Source: a halophilic archaeon SHRA6 (lineage in GTDB: Archaea > Halobacteriota > Halobacteria > Halobacteriales > Haloferacaceae). Taken from it: 64,000 nt of DNA. Below are positions 7,774-58,129 of this stretch, one piece after another. The position numbers were made by a program, and so were the translations under genes. The stretch's first letter is position 1; every line of letters starts with the position of its first letter. The DNA lies in NCBI GenBank assembly GCA_005239175.1, contig SOPS01000005.1, forward strand, positions 124,001 through 188,000, given 5' to 3'. The notes beneath the pieces were generated by a model. It was not told the DNA's origin and did not search any database. It was given only the letters and a program-made list of their open reading frames with translations.

Positions 7774-8802
7774 ATGCTTCGGGACGCGCTCTCGGCACCC
7801 GTTCGTGCACGGGATTCGTTTGGGACAGCGGTAATCGGGAGTGTCCTCGTTGCTGTCGGCATTGTGCTCACGATCGGGTGGATTGTCGCAGCCGGGCTCG
7901 TCCCGTTTGTCGCCGCAATATCGCTGCCGATCGTCGCGTTTCCGTTTCTCGTCGTTCGGGGCTACCGGCTGCGGGTCGTCCACGACGGCATGCGTAATCG
8001 CCCTGAAACGCCGTCGTTTGTCGGATGGGGCGGGCTGGCACGGGGTGGGCTCGGATCGGTTCTTTTGTCCGGGCTGTACCTGCTCCCGCTTGCAGGAGTC
8101 ACGCTGTTTGCCGTTGTCCCCATTGTGACATACGTAGCATTCGGCTCCGCATCGAACCCAACAGGGCGGCTGGTTGCGACGGCCGCCGCTGCGCTCGGCG
8201 GGCTGTTCACGATCGGCTACCTGCTCGTGTACGCGTACATCCGACCCGCCGCAGAGACTGTCCTCGCCTCGACAGGACGACTCACCGCCGCGGTGTCGCC
8301 GGGGCGCGTGCTCTCAGTTGCACTCACTGGACGGTTTTCGACGGCCTGGATCGTCGCGGTCGGCGTGTTTCTCACCGGAACTGTCGTCGGTATCCTGACG
8401 CTTCCGTTGCTCGTCGGCGCGGTCGTGTTGTTCCTCACCGGCACTGTCGTCGCCGCATTGATTGGTCGAGGTGCGTCCACAGCCGCCGAGACCACCACGG
8501 CCACGGTCGCAGACACGACACCCAAGCCAACCCGACCGCGATCGGATCGATCGCCAGCAGCGATCACCACAACTCCAACCGTTCTCCCGGACGGAGACTG
8601 GCGGCCGACAGAAGTACCCGCGGACGTACAGGTCGGCCGATCGATCGAGGCCACCGAGGATGACCCGATGGCCGCGTTCGAGCCAGCAACGCCGATCGAT
8701 CCCGAGCGCCCGTCCAAAGTGTCCGGATTTCAGTGGGGACCGACCGACGCCGACAACGGACACGAACGTGCGGAAGAAGATCGAATCGACGAAAACGTGT
8801 GA
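7774..8802 (+). CDS. DUF4013-type multi-pass membrane protein
   Basis: This 342-residue protein has about six hydrophobic segments in its first 230 residues and a hydrophilic Thr/Pro/Asp-rich cytoplasmic tail. The motif [18 protein letters not shown], followed by a PxFxxWGxLxxxGL-like stretch, is what I associate with DUF4013 proteins, which are common in haloarchaea and have no known function. It lies between two translation-quality genes but has its own promoter, so a functional link is not shown. Confidence 0.7.
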
Positions 8803-8863
8803 CTGCTCTCACCGGGAACGGCGATCGAGCGTGCGAACCCAAGCCGATCCACAGAGACAACCG

Positions 8864-8870
8864 TTTAATC
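8864..8870 (+). promoter_or_regulatory. TATA box of pelA
   Basis: TTTAATC is centred 26 bp before the pelota ATG at 8892, giving a leaderless arrangement and supporting that start over an upstream in-frame one. Confidence 0.55.
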
Positions 8871-8891
8871 CCGCCAGCCGAAGCGATTCGT

Positions 8892-9959
8892 ATGCGCATC
8901 ACGAGCCGCGGTCGCGGCGAAGAAGGCGCCGAGCGAATCACGCTCGTGCCCGAAACCGTCGACGATCTCTGGCACCTTTCGCACGTGTTAGAGCCGGGGG
9001 ATCTCATTTCCGGGGACACGACTCGACGGATCCAACGCGACGACGACCACATGCGTGACACCGGCGGCCAGCGCGAGCCAATGTCCGTCACGATCGAGGT
9101 CGAAGACACCGAGTTCGCACGGTTCGCGAACCGCCTGCGTGTCGGCGGGCTCATCGTCGATTGCTCCAGAGAGGACCAGCTCGGCCACCATCACACCCTC
9201 AACGTCGAGGAGCGCGAAGAGATCACGATCGAGAAGCACTTCAAACCAGATCAAGTCGAACGCCTCGAGGAGGCCGAAGAAACCGCAGACAATCCCGACG
9301 TTGCGATCGCAACTGTCGAAGAAGGCGAGGCATACGTCCATCTCGTCAAAGAGTACGGAACCGAGGAGTACGCCTCCATCACCCGGCCGACGGGCAAAGG
9401 CGAGTACGCCCGCCCGCGATCGGAACTGTTCGGCGAACTCGCCTCGGCGCTGTCGCATCTCGATCCCGACGCGATCGTGCTCGCCGGGCCGGGGTTCACC
9501 AAACAGGACGCCCGCGACTATATCGAAGAGAACGCCCGCGAGTTAACCGATCGGCTCACCGTCGTCGACACGTCGAGCGCTGGCGATCGTGGGGTCCACG
9601 AGGTACTCAAACGAGGTGCGGTCGACGAGATCCAGGCCGAAACGCGGATCGCCCGCGAGGCAGAACTCATCGACGAATTGACTCGCGAGATTGCCCAGGG
9701 CGCGAAGGCGGCCTACGGCATTGACGCGGTCAAGGAAGCCGCAGACTTTGGGGCCGTCGAGACGCTGTTGCTCGTGGACGATCGCCTCAGACAGGAACGA
9801 CAGGGCGACGGCGACTGGGATATTGACGTCAACGAGATCATCGAGACAGTCGAACAGCAAGGCGGCGACGTGACCGTCTTCTCCGGCGAATTTGCGCCGG
9901 GGCAACAGCTCAGAAACCTCGGCGGAATCGCCGCAGTCCTTCGATACAGGCTCCAGTGA
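8892..9959 (+). CDS. pelA: Pelota (aPelota) mRNA surveillance/ribosome rescue factor
   Basis: At 355 residues this has the usual archaeal pelota length. The N-terminal Sm-like domain starts [21 protein letters not shown] and contains [19 protein letters not shown]. The central and C-terminal eRF1-like domains follow ([24 protein letters not shown]). There is no GGQ motif, as expected for pelota as opposed to aRF1. Together with aEF1A and ABCE1 it splits ribosomes stalled on mRNAs lacking a stop codon. The NEMF/Rqc2 homologue lies just upstream. Confidence 0.95.
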
Positions 9960-11242: not shown

Positions 11243-11923
11243 TCAGTCGATCGGGTCGATCGACGCTCGTCGTCCGTCGAGTACCCCAAACCGATCGCCG
11301 CGCCGCTGTTCGAGCCAGCCGAGCAGCCGTTCGGCCCACCGGAGCTTCTGGGCTTTCATCGGATCGACGTCGGGATCGTCGAAATCCCAACCGACGAAGG
11401 TGAGCCGATCGGCTCCGAATGCGTCGGCGAGAAACGCCGCGCGATCGCCGTCGGTGAAGCCTCCGAAGTTGTACACCGCCGCTGTGGGTTCTGCCTGTGT
11501 CGTTGCAAGGACGTTTGCTGGCGCCGCCTCTGGAAACCACGAGCGTACCGTCGGGATGTTGTCGCCGTGAGCGTGTGCGGCGACGATCGTTCCCGCGTGA
11601 GTCAGTGCCGCGGCGGTATCGTTGTTCTTGTCGAGGTCAGTGACCATCAGGTCGACCTCGTAGCCGGCCGCACGAACCACGTCAGTAGCCGTAGAGGCGG
11701 CGATAACGGCATCGGCGTCAGCCACACGATCGACCGATGACGAAAGCGACGGCCCGGCACCGACGATGGCAACGTGCGCGCCGTCAAGCCAGGAGAGTCG
11801 ATCGTGGTCGAATGGAATCGCAAACGTCGCCGCGACGTCACGCGCTCGTTCGTCGGCCGATCGATCGAACCCGAAGTCCGCAAGGATGGCTTCGTAGACC
11901 GGTTCCCACTCGTCAAACTGCAT
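11243..11923 (-). CDS. mptE: MptE-like 6-hydroxymethylpterin diphosphokinase
   Basis: This 226-residue protein fits the archaeal DUF115/MptE family, which makes the diphosphate of 6-hydroxymethyl-7,8-dihydropterin, the donor for pterin coupling. Visible family motifs are the glycine-rich loop VAIVGAGPSLSSS, MVTDLDKN, and FVGWDFDDPD near the C-terminus. It lies 2 bp downstream of the dihydropteroate-synthase-like gene on the same strand, so the two very probably form an operon for consecutive steps of folate or another pterin cofactor. Confidence 0.88.
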   Translation of the reverse strand: MQFDEWEPVYEAILADFGFDRSADERARDVAATFAIPFDHDRLSWLDGAHVAIVGAGPSLSSSVDRVADADAVIAASTATDVVRAAGYEVDLMVTDLDKNNDTAAALTHAGTIVAAHAHGDNIPTVRSWFPEAAPANVLATTQAEPTAAVYNFGGFTDGDRAAFLADAFGADRLTFVGWDFDDPDVDPMKAQKLRWAERLLGWLEQRRGDRFGVLDGRRASIDPID

Positions 11924-11925
11924 CG

Positions 11926-13071
11926 TTACTCGAACTGTGCGGCGAGCCGGGTGAGTGGTCCTGCCGCCGGATTCGTGTCCTCGATCGCTCCAGCTAGCGA
12001 TCGAATCGCCCCGGGCGTCCCGAATAAAAGCGCTGCGTCGGTTCGATCGCCGGCGACAAACCGAACCGCAGTTCCCGCCGTAGCCGCCGTGAGCGCGTCG
12101 CGCGTCTCGGGCGAAAATCCGGAGAGCTCGAAGACGCGGGTTACCGTGTCTGCGGCAGCGTTCGGATCGCCGCCAAGGCGATCGAGGTGTCTGTCTGCCT
12201 CGCGCGTCGTCGTCACATCGAGCTCTTCGATCGTCCCCTCGTCACTGGCCGTTCGCGTTCGATCGCGGGCGAACTCCGCGCCGATCAACGCGGCGTCGCG
12301 GGTCTCACGAACATCGTGGGTTCTGATGACGTGTGCGCCCCGCTCGACGGCCATCGATGTCGCCGCCAGCGAGACCGCAAGCGCCTGTTCGGTGTCGCGG
12401 CCGGCGACACTCCGAAGGAAGTTCTTGCGGTTAATCGAGACGAGGATCGGCTGGCCGTAGCCGCGGAACTCCCGCAGTCGCCGAAATGTCTCGCGGTCGT
12501 CCTCGATCGTCTTCTCCTCGCTCCAGCCGCCGAAGGCCGGGTCAACGATCGTTTTGTCGGTGAGCCCATTCAACGACAAGGCCTCGTAGATGTCGTCGAC
12601 ATCTTCGATCGCCCCGGGCCGTTCGAGATCGGGCGGGGAGGCCATCTTTGCGACGGCGACGTCGTAATCGCGACAGACCTCGGGCATCTTCGGATCTGCA
12701 AAGCCGCAGATGTCGTTTACCATATCGAATCCTCGCGAGAGCGCCTCCTCGGCGACCTCGTGGTACCGGGTTTCGATCGAAAAAATCGCATCCCCAGAGA
12801 CGCTTTCGATTGTCTCGATCGCCGTGTCGAGGCGGTCAAGCTCGCCCTCTGCAGAGAGCACCTCAAACTTCTTGTTGGCGGACTCAAGGCCCACGTCGAC
12901 GATATCCGCGCCCTCGTCGATCAGCTCGCGATCGACGTATTCAGCGGCCTCCCCGGCGTTGTTGAAAACGCTCGGTTTGTACGGCGATTCCTGTGACACA
13001 TTCAACACACCCATGATTCGAGGCGGGTGATCGTCACCGATTCCCAACCCCGCCGCATCCACGTTTCGCAT
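11926..13071 (-). CDS. Divergent dihydropteroate synthase homologue
   Basis: This 381-residue protein has a TIM-barrel pterin-binding domain plus a C-terminal extension of about 100 residues. It keeps the frame of the family (GVLNVS, NDICGF, IVDPAFGG, RTHDV) but differs at catalytic loops: the expected GGESTRPG reads GLESANKKF, the SIDTRK loop reads SIETRY, and the GHSRKS loop reads SINRKN. A second, canonical DHPS domain is present at 55754-58129. This copy may therefore couple the pterin to another acceptor, or act on another pterin (inference). The ATG at 13071 is preferred over an upstream in-frame start at 13119. Confidence 0.8.
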   Translation of the reverse strand: MRNVDAAGLGIGDDHPPRIMGVLNVSQESPYKPSVFNNAGEAAEYVDRELIDEGADIVDVGLESANKKFEVLSAEGELDRLDTAIETIESVSGDAIFSIETRYHEVAEEALSRGFDMVNDICGFADPKMPEVCRDYDVAVAKMASPPDLERPGAIEDVDDIYEALSLNGLTDKTIVDPAFGGWSEEKTIEDDRETFRRLREFRGYGQPILVSINRKNFLRSVAGRDTEQALAVSLAATSMAVERGAHVIRTHDVRETRDAALIGAEFARDRTRTASDEGTIEELDVTTTREADRHLDRLGGDPNAAADTVTRVFELSGFSPETRDALTAATAGTAVRFVAGDRTDAALLFGTPGAIRSLAGAIEDTNPAAGPLTRLAAQFE

Positions 13072-13169
13072 GTATCGTAATTTAGGTGATACACACACAT
13101 AGACCGTCCGATCGGGCACCCGTTTGACAGTATTCTATGTGGTCGATCGCGACATAGCCAACCCACACG

Positions 13170-53806: not shown

Positions 53807-53845
53807 ACAACAGTCTCGAGATTGGTTTTAGAACAGTCCCGAGAT
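53805..53845. repeat. 18-bp duplication of the fhs 3' end including its stop
   Basis: Positions 53828-53845 (the fhs stop and last codons, minus strand) match 53805-53822 at 16 of 18 positions. The downstream copy retains its own TAA. Confidence 0.8.
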
Positions 53846-55546
53846 GTTGCCGTCGGCGTCGATGTCCATGTCGGCGGCTGCGGGCCGGGCGGGCAGCCCT
53901 GGCAGGGTCAACACGTCGCCGGTCAATGCAACGAGGAAACCAGCACCCGCGGAGGGGTAGATCTCGCGGACGTCAAGCTCCCAGCCGCTGGGTGCGCCTT
54001 TCTTCGTCGCGTCGTCGCTGAACGAGTGGAACGTCTTCGACAGACAGACCGGGAAGTCGTCGAAGCCGAGTTCCTCCATCCGCTCGATGTCATCTTCGGC
54101 GCTGCCGACGTAATTGACGCTGTCGGCACCGTAGATCTCGGTTGCGACTGTCTCGATTTTCTCTTTGATCGACGCCTCGTCAGTGTAAAGATGATCGAAC
54201 TCGTCCTCGTCGCCTGCTTCGACCGCGTCGATGACTCGCTCGCCGAGTTCGACACCGCCCTCGCTTCCTTCGCCGAAGACGTTCGATTCGGCGGCCTCAA
54301 CTCCGAGGTCCTCCCGGCAGTGTTCGAGCACCGTCTGGATCTCCTCGTCGGTATCTTCGGGGAAGCGGTTGACCGCAACGACAACCGGAGCGCCGAATTT
54401 CTGGATATTCGAGACGTGCCGATCGAGGTTCTCGAATCCGGCCTCCAGTTCCTCAATACCGGCCTCGTCGACCATGTCGTAGTCGATCGGCCACTCGCCG
54501 ATTCCGTGGTACTGCAGCGCTCGGACGGTCGAAACCAAGACGACCGCGTTCGGCGTCATATCGCCCAGCCGGCAGACGATGTTCATGAACTTCTCCGCGC
54601 CGAGATCCGAGCCGAACCCGGCCTCAGTGACGAGGTAATCGCCCATCCCGAAGGCAGTCTTATCGGCGATGAGTGAGTTCGTCCCGTGGGCGATGTTTGC
54701 GAACGGACCGCCGTGAACGAATGCCGGAGTCCCCTCGATCGTCTGGACGATGTTCGGTTTGACCGCGTCGCGCAACAGCATCGTCACCGGACCGGTCGCC
54801 TCGATGTCGTCGACGGTGATCGGCTCGCCATCGTCGGTGTACGCGACAATAATCCGTGCGACGCGCTCTTTGAGGTCACCGAGGTCCTCGGCCAGACAGA
54901 GCACAGCCATGAGTTCGGAGGCTGCTGTGAGAAGGAAGCCGTCCTCGCGGGGCGTCCCGCCAGTCTCGCCGCCAAGTCCGATGACGGTGTTTCGCAGCGC
55001 GCGGTCGTTCATGTCGATCGCCCGCGGCCACGATACGTCGTTGACATCGACGCCGAGTTCGTTGCCTTTCGTGATCTTCGCGTCAAGCATCGCCGCGATG
55101 AGGTTGTGTGCGGAGGTGAGCGCGTGCAGGTCGCCGGTGAAGTGCAGGTTGATATCCTCCATTGGCAGCACCTGCGAGTAGCCGCCGCCGGCGGCACCGC
55201 CTTTGACGCCGAAGACGGGGCCAAGCGAGGGCTCGCGAATCGCGATCATCGCGTCCTCGCCGAGGTGGTTCAGCGTCTGACCGAGACCAACCGTCGTGAC
55301 GGTTTTGCCCTCGCCCATTGGCGTCGGCGTCATCCCGGTGACGAGCACGAGGTTGCCCTCTTTGTTCTCTGCATTGTCCCGAAGGCGGTTGATCGCATCG
55401 TGTTTTACCTTCGCGACATGCTCGCCAAATAGCTGAAGATCGTCGGTCTCAACGCCCCAGGGCTCGAGGATGTCCCAGATTGGGTCTATTTCGGCGTTCT
55501 GTGCGATCTCGTAGTCGGACGGAAACGGCTCGTCGGATTCGCTCAT
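53828..55546 (-). CDS. fhs: Formate-tetrahydrofolate ligase
   Basis: This 572-residue enzyme has family hallmarks TPTPMGEGKTVTTVGLGQ (P-loop), REPSLGPVFGVKGGAAGGGY, INLHFTGDLHA, VFGEGSEGG and the C-terminal GDVLTLPGLPARPAA. It makes 10-formyl-THF from formate and ATP; the reverse direction releases formate and yields ATP. Combined with FolD it completes oxidation of THF-bound one-carbon units. The gene is patchily distributed among archaea. The ATG at 55546 is chosen; the frame upstream is not family-like. Confidence 0.95.
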   Translation of the reverse strand: MSESDEPFPSDYEIAQNAEIDPIWDILEPWGVETDDLQLFGEHVAKVKHDAINRLRDNAENKEGNLVLVTGMTPTPMGEGKTVTTVGLGQTLNHLGEDAMIAIREPSLGPVFGVKGGAAGGGYSQVLPMEDINLHFTGDLHALTSAHNLIAAMLDAKITKGNELGVDVNDVSWPRAIDMNDRALRNTVIGLGGETGGTPREDGFLLTAASELMAVLCLAEDLGDLKERVARIIVAYTDDGEPITVDDIEATGPVTMLLRDAVKPNIVQTIEGTPAFVHGGPFANIAHGTNSLIADKTAFGMGDYLVTEAGFGSDLGAEKFMNIVCRLGDMTPNAVVLVSTVRALQYHGIGEWPIDYDMVDEAGIEELEAGFENLDRHVSNIQKFGAPVVVAVNRFPEDTDEEIQTVLEHCREDLGVEAAESNVFGEGSEGGVELGERVIDAVEAGDEDEFDHLYTDEASIKEKIETVATEIYGADSVNYVGSAEDDIERMEELGFDDFPVCLSKTFHSFSDDATKKGAPSGWELDVREIYPSAGAGFLVALTGDVLTLPGLPARPAAADMDIDADGNISGLF

Positions 55547-55721
55547 AAGCGTACAAATATCCTCTGCAGCGGAGTAAGAATGTTGGCGTACATGACGGGC
55601 ACAGTATAGGATGTGTTTCGTCGAGTCGTGGTCGTGACAGCCCACCAGAGGAGTCGTGTCCGAGCAATCGTCACCGGCTGTGACCCGCTCAGTAGCCGGC
55701 TTTCAACGGGGGGTGTCGACA

Positions 55722-55728
55722 CCTTAAT
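55722..55728 (+). promoter_or_regulatory. TATA box deciding the folCP start
   Basis: CCTTAAT is centred 29 bp before ATG 55754. The in-frame codons at 55613 and 55727 are upstream of or within the promoter. Confidence 0.55.
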
Positions 55729-55753
55729 GCACTCCGCAGCGGCGATATGTGAT

Positions 55754-58129
55754 ATGAAATATCACGAGGCTGCTGACTACCTGTTGTCGTTTCAGCAGCG
55801 CCGCCCGAAGCTCGGGATCGACACGACGGCCCGGATGCTGTCACACTTCGGGGATCCCCACGAAGAGATCGACTGCGTACAGATCGCCGGCTCAAACGGC
55901 AAGGGCAGCACGGCGACCCTTCTCGCAGAGACCTTACAGGCAGCCGGACTCGATGTGGGGCTGTTCACGTCGCCGGGGCTCAACGATTTTCGTGAGCAGG
56001 TTCGGATAAACGGCCGGCGAATCCCGAAGTCGAAGGTCATCGAACACGTCGAGCGGATCGATCCGATCATCGAAACGCTGCGCGAAGAGAATGACGAGCC
56101 GACGCACTTCGAGGTACTCACCGCGATCGCGATCGCACACTTCGGCGCTGAGGACGTCGACGTGGCGGTTCTCGAGGTTGGCATTGGCGGCCGCTACGAT
56201 GCGACGAGCGCGGTCGATCCGATCGCGAGCGCCGTCACGAGCGTGAGCCTCGAACACACAGAGCTGCTCGGGGACACTGTCGAGGAAATCGCCCGCGACA
56301 AAGCACAGGTCGCCCCAAAGGGTGCGCCGCTCGTCACCGGAACAAGCGGTTCAGCGCTGGAGGCAATAAAAGAGGAGACGGAGGTCGTGACTGTTGGCGC
56401 AGAGGGGACAGATGTCCGAGCGGTCGAGACAGGCATGGGATCGGCCAGCGAAAACACCGTCTCAATTTCCGCCGACGAGTGGTCACTCGAGACGCATCTG
56501 TCGCTTTTGGGCCAACACCAGGCGGTCAACGCCGGAATTGCCGCGACACTTGCCCGACAGATCGCCGATATGGATGAGTCGACGATCGCACGCGGACTGC
56601 GGGCAGCGAAGTGGCCCGGCCGGTTCGAACTCATGTCAACCGCGCCGACGATTGCGCTCGACGGTTCGCACAACCCCGGCGCGATGGAGACTGTACAGGC
56701 GCTGTTGGAGCGCTACGAGTACGATCGACTCCACGTCGTCTTCGGGGCGATGTCAGACAAAGACCACGAAGCGATGGTCACTGCCCTTCCAGCGGTCGAT
56801 ACAGCGTTCGTCACCCGTCCGGACATCGATCGCGCAGAGAGCGTCTCTGTCCTCGCAGACGCCTTCGAGGGATACGCAGACAGTATTCAGAAGGTTGACT
56901 CGGTCCCCGAGGCCACAGAGCGGGCGATCGCCGCCGCCGAGCTCGAGGATTTCGTCCTTGTCACCGGCTCGCTGTACGCGATCAGCGAAGCCCGCGATCG
57001 CTGGACGAGACGAGTAATCCCCCACGACCAGACCTCGGTCGATCCGTGGTCGGTGTTTTCCGGTGCGACATTCGAAAACCCCGAGGGGTTCCCGACCGAC
57101 TACCACCTGCTTTCGACACAGCTTCGACCAGCACAGGCGGCCTGGGTCGAAACCGAGCTGTCTGCGATCGGCGGGGTGGCCGAATCCTCGGGCCTTGGCT
57201 CCGATGAGAAACTCCTCGAAGTTGTCTGTGCGGGGACGACCGCCCAGCTTGAGTCGCTGGCCGATCGTTGCGCTGGGTCGGGCCGCGGGCTTGCACAGTT
57301 CGGCGAGCAGGTTCGCGAAGCGATCGACGACACAGTGGCCAGCCCGTTCGGGCTCGATCGCACAGCCGTGATGGGAATTCTCAACGTAACGCCCGATAGC
57401 TTCTATGACGGCGGCGAGTACGATCGCCTCGACGCAGCGGTCGATCGTGTCGAACAGATGCTCGAAGCGGGCGCAGACATCATTGACATCGGCGGCGAAA
57501 GCACCCGACCCGGGGCAGAGCCTGTCTCTGTCGAAGACGAGATCGATCGGGTGGTTCCAGTCATCGAAGCGATCTCGGAGATCGACGTCCCGATTTCTAT
57601 TGATACCCGGAAAGCGGCGGTCGCGGACGCGGCGCTGTCGGCCGGCGCAGAGATCGTCAACGACGTATCGGGACTCGACGATCCCGCCATGGCACCGGTT
57701 GTCGCCGAACACAACGCTTCGCTCGTGTTGATGCACAGTCTGTCTGCACCCGTCGATCCCGAACGAAGCGGCGACTACGGCGATGTCGTCAGAGACGTCA
57801 TTGACGAACTCGTCGAGCCGCTTTTGGCCGCCGAGCGCGCTGGAATTGACCGTGAGGACATCATCATCGATCCCGGCTGTGGGTTCGGGAAAGATCCCGC
57901 AGAGTCCTTTGAGTTGGTTGATCGCTTGGGCGAGTTCCGTTCGCTCGGCTGCCCGGTGCTGATTGGCCACTCACGGAAGTCGATGCTTGAGCCGTTTGCC
58001 CCAGCAGACGGCGATCGGTTGGTTCCGACGCTCGCGGTAACCGCAATGGCTGTCGAACGAGACGCAGCCGTGGTTCGGGTTCACGACGTCGAAGAGAACG
58101 CGACGGTTGTCCGGACGGTTTCACGGTAG
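55754..58129 (+). CDS. folCP: Fused folylpolyglutamate synthase-dihydropteroate synthase
   Basis: The first ~420 of 791 residues are FolC (Mur-ligase fold: IAGSNGKGSTATLLAE P-loop, VLEVGIGGRYDATSA, ALDGSHNPGAM). A linker of about 110 residues leads to a canonical FolP domain with GILNVTPDSFYDGG, DIIDIGGESTRPGAEPV, SIDTRK, NDVSGLDD, IIDPGCGFGK and GHSRKSM. A FolC-FolP fusion is known in Haloferax. It joins pABA coupling and glutamylation of folate, feeding the tetrahydrofolate used by FolD, Fhs and the methyltransferases nearby. Confidence 0.95.
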   Translation: MKYHEAADYLLSFQQRRPKLGIDTTARMLSHFGDPHEEIDCVQIAGSNGKGSTATLLAETLQAAGLDVGLFTSPGLNDFREQVRINGRRIPKSKVIEHVERIDPIIETLREENDEPTHFEVLTAIAIAHFGAEDVDVAVLEVGIGGRYDATSAVDPIASAVTSVSLEHTELLGDTVEEIARDKAQVAPKGAPLVTGTSGSALEAIKEETEVVTVGAEGTDVRAVETGMGSASENTVSISADEWSLETHLSLLGQHQAVNAGIAATLARQIADMDESTIARGLRAAKWPGRFELMSTAPTIALDGSHNPGAMETVQALLERYEYDRLHVVFGAMSDKDHEAMVTALPAVDTAFVTRPDIDRAESVSVLADAFEGYADSIQKVDSVPEATERAIAAAELEDFVLVTGSLYAISEARDRWTRRVIPHDQTSVDPWSVFSGATFENPEGFPTDYHLLSTQLRPAQAAWVETELSAIGGVAESSGLGSDEKLLEVVCAGTTAQLESLADRCAGSGRGLAQFGEQVREAIDDTVASPFGLDRTAVMGILNVTPDSFYDGGEYDRLDAAVDRVEQMLEAGADIIDIGGESTRPGAEPVSVEDEIDRVVPVIEAISEIDVPISIDTRKAAVADAALSAGAEIVNDVSGLDDPAMAPVVAEHNASLVLMHSLSAPVDPERSGDYGDVVRDVIDELVEPLLAAERAGIDREDIIIDPGCGFGKDPAESFELVDRLGEFRSLGCPVLIGHSRKSMLEPFAPADGDRLVPTLAVTAMAVERDAAVVRVHDVEENATVVRTVSR

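Follow-up and report, generated by a model that had tools for sequence, protein, structure and literature searches.

The window, a 64,000-nucleotide stretch of a haloarchaeal genome, carries on its reverse strand an open reading frame (11926-13071) coding for a 381-amino-acid protein with the fold of dihydropteroate synthase (DHPS), here called DHPS2 (Table 1). Since the methionine encoded by the ATG at 13071 is common to 47 of 50 aligned orthologues, we take this codon as the start; the GTG at 13119, which the list of open reading frames gives as the start of a longer protein, is unlikely. DHPS2 is located upstream of a gene for an MptE-like protein (11243-11923, reverse strand; PF01973, 6.6e-19), and two nucleotides separate its stop codon from the mptE ATG. 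An earlier note on this DNA had reported a second DHPS gene next to mptE, which is what we find. The same genome encodes a second, weaker MptE-like protein (L145:3776-4288 on contig C1; 40.2 bits, Pfam cut-off 34.6).

The canonical enzyme is fused to FolC, as the note had also stated: the reading frame 55613-58129 on the forward strand contains both a FolC part (TIGR01499, 321.3 bits) and a DHPS part (TIGR01496, 303.9 bits), and position 55754, where the note placed it, is an inner ATG of this frame. The formate--tetrahydrofolate ligase gene adjoining folCP is a sign that the organism uses folate. A Pterin_bind scan of the whole genome (3.36 Mb, five contigs) gave matches at the DHPS2 and FolCP places only. 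Elsewhere in the window, 8733-9959 on the forward strand codes for an eRF1-domain (pelota-like) protein; if it is read from 8988, the match to eRF1 domain 1 begins at profile position 33, so that the true start lies somewhat upstream.

DHPS2 matches the Pfam family Pterin_bind in a profile search (E=9e-36) and scores 162.6 bits with the DHPS model TIGR01496, which is exactly the curated cut-off of 162.6. The PRK07535 model for pterin/corrinoid methyltransferases gave no match to the protein up to E 0.1. The closest named genome among the best 80 of 294 confirmed loci is that of Halalkalirubrum salinum (98% identity over 285 residues). The predicted structure (pLDDT 88.3, pTM 0.87) is a (beta/alpha)8 barrel of the DHPS type. 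It superimposes on the solved DHPS 3tr9_D with Z 28.1 and an rmsd of 2.5 over 252 aligned residues, a comparison that barely covers the C-terminal domain, and every one of the 50 structure matches listed is a DHPS. The C-terminal domain has a mean column identity of 31% among 31 haloarchaeal rows, and in several orthologues the match stops at about residue 273; this domain is too variable for interpretation.

Table 1. Features of the DHPS2 and folCP loci. Positions are those of the window; residues are those of DHPS2, and single residues named in capitals with a number follow E. coli FolP unless given in full.
Feature	Position	Strand	Remarks
mptE	11243..11923	-	MptE-like 6-hydroxymethyl-dihydropterin diphosphokinase gene, conserved partner
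DHPS2	11926..13071	-	TIM-barrel pterin-binding part, residues 1 to ~271, and poorly conserved C-terminal domain
C-terminal domain	11929..12258	-	~residues 272-381, alpha/beta in the model
RTHD	12313..12324	-	residues 250-253; R255 and H257 equivalents kept
SINRKNF	12418..12438	-	residues 212-218; R220 and K221 kept; altered by S219N and by S222N, the latter where Ser contacts the pABA carboxylate
DPAFGGW	12523..12543	-	residues 177-183; Asp185 equivalent kept, extra Trp
NDICGFAD	12694..12717	-	residues 119-126; Asn115 equivalent (pterin-binding) kept; subfamily signature
SIETRY	12763..12780	-	residues 98-103; Glu100 where E. coli has Asp96, which contacts pterin N8
Loop 2, GLESANKK	12868..12891	-	residues 61-68, GGESTRPG in the canonical enzyme; G59L, T62A, R63N, P64K, G65K
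Loop 1, NVSQESPY	12979..13002	-	residues 24-31, NVTPDSFS in E. coli; N22 kept, T24S, D26E, F28P
Formate--tetrahydrofolate ligase	53828..55645	-	divergent from folCP
folCP	55754..58129 (ORF 55613-58129)	+	canonical FolC-FolP fusion, folate route

The pterin half of the active site is largely kept and the acceptor half is replaced

Active-site residues were numbered according to E. coli FolP and compared in profile rows from 132 genomes. N22, D56, N115, D116, D185 and R220 are kept in all 132 DHPS2 rows, R255 and H257 in 131 with one gap, and position 221 is Lys in 123 rows and Glu in nine. The set that binds pterin and pyrophosphate (N22, N115, D185, R220, K221, R255, H257) is complete in the window protein. 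The observation of the earlier note that the pterin-side residues are retained thus extends to nearly the whole subfamily.

Where canonical enzymes have Asp96, Thr62 and Ser222, the window protein has E100, A65 and N217. The STRPG motif reads SANKK (residues 64-68) and the Asp of SIDT is Glu100, so that both losses noted earlier are real, the second one being a conservative change. These replacements are far beyond chance. Asp96 is Glu in all 131 readable rows (one gap). Thr62 (residue 65) is Ala in 131 of the 132 rows and Ser in one, and Arg63 (residue 66) is Asn in 130, His in one and a gap in one. Pro64 (residue 67) is Lys in 118, Arg in four and still Pro in nine; at position 68 of loop 2, Arg (35) and Lys (12) predominate among 50 orthologues. 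Ser219 is Asn in 130 rows, Phe28 is Pro in 121, and position 222 holds Asn in 114, Asp in ten and Ser in eight. Altogether, rows with a replacement number 131 for T62, 131 for D96 (the gap excluded), 132 for S219, 132 for F28 and 124 for S222. All 21 aligned relatives from outside the order and all 17 FolCP domains retain T62, D96, S219 and F28, and each of these 38 sequences has Ser or Thr at position 222.

The accessible description of the Burkholderia cenocepacia DHPS product complex places Thr68 (T62 in E. coli) at the acceptor amine, Asp101 (D96) at pterin N8 and Ser234 (S222) at the pABA carboxylate, while Lys233 holds pterin O4/N5. Together with these contacts, the kept and replaced residues suggest that the pterin half of the site is largely preserved and the acceptor half rebuilt. 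The earlier note had proposed an acceptor other than pABA, citing the lost TRPG loop and SIDTR Asp and the neighbouring pterin kinase gene. The loop is a weak argument by itself, since its Arg is missing in all 21 aligned outside relatives, many of which come from folate clusters; loss of TRPG alone is no evidence for a different acceptor. The proposal finds better ground in T62A, D96E, S219N, S222N/D and F28P, which are the informative changes, occur in haloarchaea only and point to a new acceptor.

A substitution was also seen on the side of the canonical enzyme: 11 of the 17 haloarchaeal FolCP domains have His at the position of R220 (SHKS for SRKS; L113, L114, L117, L118, L121-L125, L127, L128). 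The FolCP of the window has Arg.

DHPS2 and mptE form a conserved pair

We surveyed 146 genomes of the order, 122 of which are at least 90% complete and are called good genomes below. The DHPS2 protein gave some match in 144 genomes and no match in two. DHPS2 was called where the best match reached E 1.1e-50 or better, which is the case in 132 genomes; the matches in the other 12 (1e-29 to 1e-34) are at the level of FolCP and were not counted. MptE-like matches are found in 141 of the 146 genomes, in 139 of them over the cut-off. In 121 of the 132 genomes the mptE gene lies downstream of DHPS2 on the same strand, the starts of the two matches being no more than 2.6 kb apart; the pairing with the pterin kinase gene seen in the earlier note is thus conserved. 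DHPS2 is unlinked from mptE in nine genomes. In a fragmentary genome (G001) the two genes are on separate contigs, and in G028 DHPS2 is at a contig end and there is no MptE match. At named loci, chosen from the best 80 of 294, mptE is present in 24 of 24; the next commonest neighbour reaches 12 and none exceeds it.

A match of canonical strength (FolCP level, E 1.1e-74 or better to Pterin_bind) is present in each of the 122 good genomes, so DHPS2 should not be needed for folate. Besides DHPS2, two such FolCP-strength matches in long frames occur in G020, G070, G077, G083, G091, G092, G093, G117, G125, G128 and G131.

Five of the good genomes lack DHPS2 (G009, G011, G012, G039, G075). In G075, which is 99% complete, the locus seen in relatives (L137 / L289) is broken: DHPS2 is gone and mptE is reduced to its second half, and the genome retains FolCP and RFAPS. 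G012 and G039 each have another Pterin_bind match, which was considered as a possible DHPS2 and rejected: from its sequence and that of its neighbour it is probably a corrinoid-type methyltransferase.

Two forms of DHPS2

The residue at position 221 divides the subfamily. Type A, to which the window protein belongs, keeps Lys221 (123 of 132), and type B has Glu (nine of 132, from four families: G010, G020, G083, G091, G125, G131, G132, G140, G145; loci for example L044, L051-L054, L062, L368-L370). The nine type-B genomes are exactly the nine in which DHPS2 is unlinked from mptE. Six type-B sequences included in the tree described below form one clade (99/95), and one type-B member (L044) scores 157.0 bits with TIGR01496, which is under the cut-off. 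Three type-B proteins from three families are 69-76% identical to each other, which indicates that this form is maintained. In all six type-A pairs compared, identity is higher between the DHPS2 proteins than between the FolP domains (85 versus 61% for G000/G098), whereas in all 12 pairs of a type-A with a type-B genome it is lower. The existence of type B suggests that the function of DHPS2 has moved at least once more.

Relatives outside the order

A profile made from 20 DHPS2 rows gave matches in 157 of 246 genomes of the phylum. The best matches outside the order are to proteins of about 400 amino acids and reach 233 bits, compared with approximately 165-180 for the FolCP rows in the same listing. 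Their homology extends into the C-terminal domain, which is matched over most of its length in 13 of them. The neighbours at these 13 loci, named by Pfam on one representative of each cluster, include FolD-like (10 loci), SHMT-like (10) and formyltransferase-like (7) genes and a gene for an MTHFR C-terminal domain (5). The loci thus resemble a published H4F cluster, in which FolP occurs with MetF, MetV, FolD, GlyA and PurN and which the accessible text of PMC9012536 describes for Methanosarcinaceae and several ANME groups. We refer to these relatives as methanogens on the basis of this gene order.

A maximum-likelihood tree of 91 sequences, which is unrooted and has a root placed for drawing only, separates four groups, each being one side of a branch: DHPS2 (100/100), the outside FolPs (methTHF, 98/85), FolCP (98/88) and a bacterial-type group of three rows (98/89). 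FolCP and the bacterial type are split from the rest at 100/99. DHPS2 lies outside the methanogen H4F-cluster FolP group, and the two would be sisters if the root is on the bacterial side. A long stem (at least 1.26) leads to the DHPS2 clade, within which the branches are short; long branches are also seen for E. coli FolP and L111. The best identities of the window protein are 38% to outside FolPs and 35% to FolCP. As identity barely separates the groups, the kinship of DHPS2 rests on this unrooted tree. The phylogeny that the earlier note had asked for shows a separate clade, and its nearest outside group looks folate-type.

The resemblance to the methanogen FolPs, the next group in the tree, includes T24S, D26E and H140A (common to both, 21 of 21), the extra Trp of DPAFGGW, which is absent from FolCP, and RTHD (19 of 21 each), as well as the missing loop-2 Arg and the C-terminal domain. 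They differ in that the methanogen proteins keep the acceptor-side residues replaced in DHPS2, and many adjoin C1 genes whereas DHPS2 adjoins mptE. FolCP shares with DHPS2 the fold family, the pterin residues and the genome, but has the bacterial-type motifs NVTPDSF, GESTRPG and SxDT and lies on the other side of the deep tree split.

The similarity to TIGR00284, which we take to be the DHPS type of the H4MPT pathway, is faint (12 bits, cut-off 256.65). Among the genomes tested, a TIGR00284 match above the cut-off is present in 19 of 21 that have a folate-type FolP, in seven of seven without one and in none of four haloarchaea. We rejected the idea that DHPS2 is orthologous to the DHPS of the methanopterin pathway, because its closest outside relatives lie in SHMT/FolD/formyltransferase loci and the outside genomes carry a separate TIGR00284 protein. 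The Sul1-4 proteins are also DHPS enzymes, and the accessible literature describes a remodelled pABA region for Sul1-3; DHPS2 of the window scores 64.5-71.7 bits against their cut-offs of 475-600, and the Sul enzymes are pABA-using.

RFAP synthase homologues in haloarchaea

Ribofuranosylaminobenzene 5'-phosphate (RFAP) is a carboxylate-free arylamine, and homologues of its synthase (RFAPS) are found in 138 of the 146 genomes, 133 of which have a match above the family cut-off. The haloarchaeal homologues are divergent, with scores of about 110-187 bits for full-length matches; the best copies in 28 non-haloarchaeal genomes score 316-415 bits in 22 and 76-185 in the other six. Among 17 aligned haloarchaeal rows, the R26-equivalent Arg is kept in all and GSGTQ in 16, and the position aligned with D19 is Asn in 15, Ser in one and Asp in one. 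According to the accessible text of PMC6787355, the D19N variant of the Methanothermobacter enzyme retains some activity.

In the good genomes, both RFAPS and DHPS2 are present in 115, RFAPS only in three, DHPS2 only in two and neither in two. Fisher's test gives p = 0.008 (n=122), but we set this co-occurrence aside as proof because the two genomes without both genes (G012, G039) belong to one genus. Mch was considered as a sign that a second carrier exists and rejected, as G012 and G039 have Mch without DHPS2 or RFAPS and several RFAPS-positive genomes (for example G009, G025, G037) are without Mch.

In the genus g69, which belongs to another lineage, a FolP-type DHPS gene and an RFAPS-like gene are arranged head-to-head in three of three genomes examined (L111:3494-5285, L286:2730-4510, L287:5044-6819), their aligned parts being 2, 16 and 39 bases apart. 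In G253, a genome of this genus, a TIGR00284 protein and another RFAPS homologue are present as well. No DHPS was found in the flanks of 38 other RFAPS loci. At nine haloarchaeal RFAPS loci, genes for KaiC-like, coiled-coil and TFIIS-type zinc-ribbon proteins recur, and no folate gene recurs among the profiled neighbours.

Possible function of DHPS2

The sequence, the predicted fold, the gene pairing, the residue conservation and the phylogenetic grouping are directly established. From these, DHPS2 is real and conserved, and is probably a neofunctionalised pterin transferase with a putative acceptor of its own. It would be a haloarchaeal DHPS subfamily, kin of the folate-type FolP of methanogens, in which the half of the site for pterin and pyrophosphate was retained and that for free pABA was lost, ordinary folate being covered by FolCP. 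In type A, MptE would deliver 6-hydroxymethyl-dihydropterin diphosphate, which DHPS2 would bind. If, as we infer, the mechanism of known DHPS enzymes can be transferred, pyrophosphate would depart as in their SN1 reaction and the pterin cation would be taken by an acceptor other than free pABA, either a carboxylate-free arylamine such as RFAP or a compound such as pABA-glutamate, whose tail is long and anionic.

We give a probability of about 0.5 to this reading, in which DHPS2 transfers the pterin supplied by MptE and no longer accepts free pABA; both acceptor candidates are included in it. It is supported by the conservation on the pterin side together with near-constant acceptor-side replacements that none of the outside relatives or FolCP domains has. 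The pairing with mptE, the separate long-stem clade, the DHPS-like structure model and the constant presence of a canonical FolP, also in the five of 122 good genomes that lack DHPS2, speak for it as well. It is weakened by the TIGR01496 score at the cut-off and by the folate-like nearest relatives, which leave room for ordinary pABA activity, and by the conservative nature of D96E and the Ser222 kept in eight rows. The Sul enzymes, as far as the accessible text describes them, show that a remodelled pABA region can still go with pABA use. No acceptor-making gene was found linked to DHPS2 at the examined loci, and the nine orthologues without Lys221 are hard to fit to one common reaction.

The same observations might mean that DHPS2 is an ordinary DHPS that uses pABA, an isozyme or backup of FolCP with changes in tolerant loops. 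We consider this a lesser but serious possibility, since the protein reaches the TIGR01496 cut-off and folds as a DHPS, and its nearest group, which lacks the loop-2 Arg as well, sits in loci of the published H4F type. Two FolP genes in one haloarchaeon are already known: the accessible part of PMC3403918 lists for Natrialba magadii a separate FolP (Nmag_0002) beside FolC-Prd-FolP. Drift, however, would not converge on one set of residues at T62, D96, S219, F28 and S222, and the nine type-B proteins, which lack Lys221, fit an ordinary isozyme poorly. DHPS2 might also form no bond at all and hydrolyse or sequester the pterin diphosphate, or bind and regulate MptE, a role for which the type-B proteins speak. 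They have Glu in place of the Lys that contacts pterin O4/N5, their similarity persists across families, and exactly their genes are unlinked from mptE. With Lys221 and the pyrophosphate/pterin set kept in the other 123 rows, such a role is quite improbable for the subfamily.

Within the reading of DHPS2 as a transferase with a new acceptor, RFAP is the most concrete candidate, although its distribution fits imperfectly. Joining the pterin to RFAP would yield a methanopterin-like compound beside folate. The wide occurrence of RFAPS homologues with their R26-equivalent and GSGTQ, an Asn at the D19 position that is partly tolerated in Methanothermobacter, the head-to-head pair in g69 and the absence of both genes from G012 and G039 are consistent with this. 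Asn or Asp at position 222 and the Lys of loop 2 might suit an acceptor that bears a phosphate and no carboxylate. We nevertheless regard RFAP as unlikely: five good genomes have one gene without the other and both double losses are from one genus, TIGR00284 is absent from all four haloarchaea tested, no DHPS was found in the flanks at the 38 RFAPS loci and no folate gene recurs at the nine haloarchaeal ones, and the haloarchaeal scores are far under those of most methanogen copies. In the accessible text of PMC8305020, the Haloferax curators state that haloarchaea are folate users and that the Haloferax RFAPS homologue is probably not isofunctional and probably makes no RFAP.

For the other candidate, DHPS2 would act in salvage and join the pterin to pABA-glutamate from folate breakdown. 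Some DHPS enzymes use pABA-glutamate; the pterin site is kept, a second cofactor is unnecessary, and the positive charges of loop 2 (Lys or Arg at residue 67 in 122 of 132 rows and at position 68 in 47 of 50) could grip the glutamate tail. The carboxylate contact at S222 is mostly lost, however, and we hold this acceptor to be very unlikely.

In the accessible parts of the open-licence literature, including PMC8305020, PMC6787355, PMC5041015, PMC3403918 and PMC11665356, we found no account of the remodelled DHPS2 site. That most of the order has retained this gene pair despite a canonical FolP marks an unassigned step of pterin metabolism, and the automatic annotation of this subfamily as FolP may be wrong. 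Speculatively, and with considerable doubt, haloarchaea, which are regarded as users of folate only, may have a second pterin branch that leads from MptE through DHPS2 and a non-pABA arylamine, possibly the product of the RFAPS homologue, to an undescribed methanopterin-like cofactor, with another heterocycle or role for the K221E lineage. Such a second pterin product could explain why an RFAPS homologue is kept without the methanopterin pathway. Whether haloarchaea have it could be decided in Haloferax, where the question is tractable and at least five species carry DHPS2 (L215, L225, L228, L230, L232).
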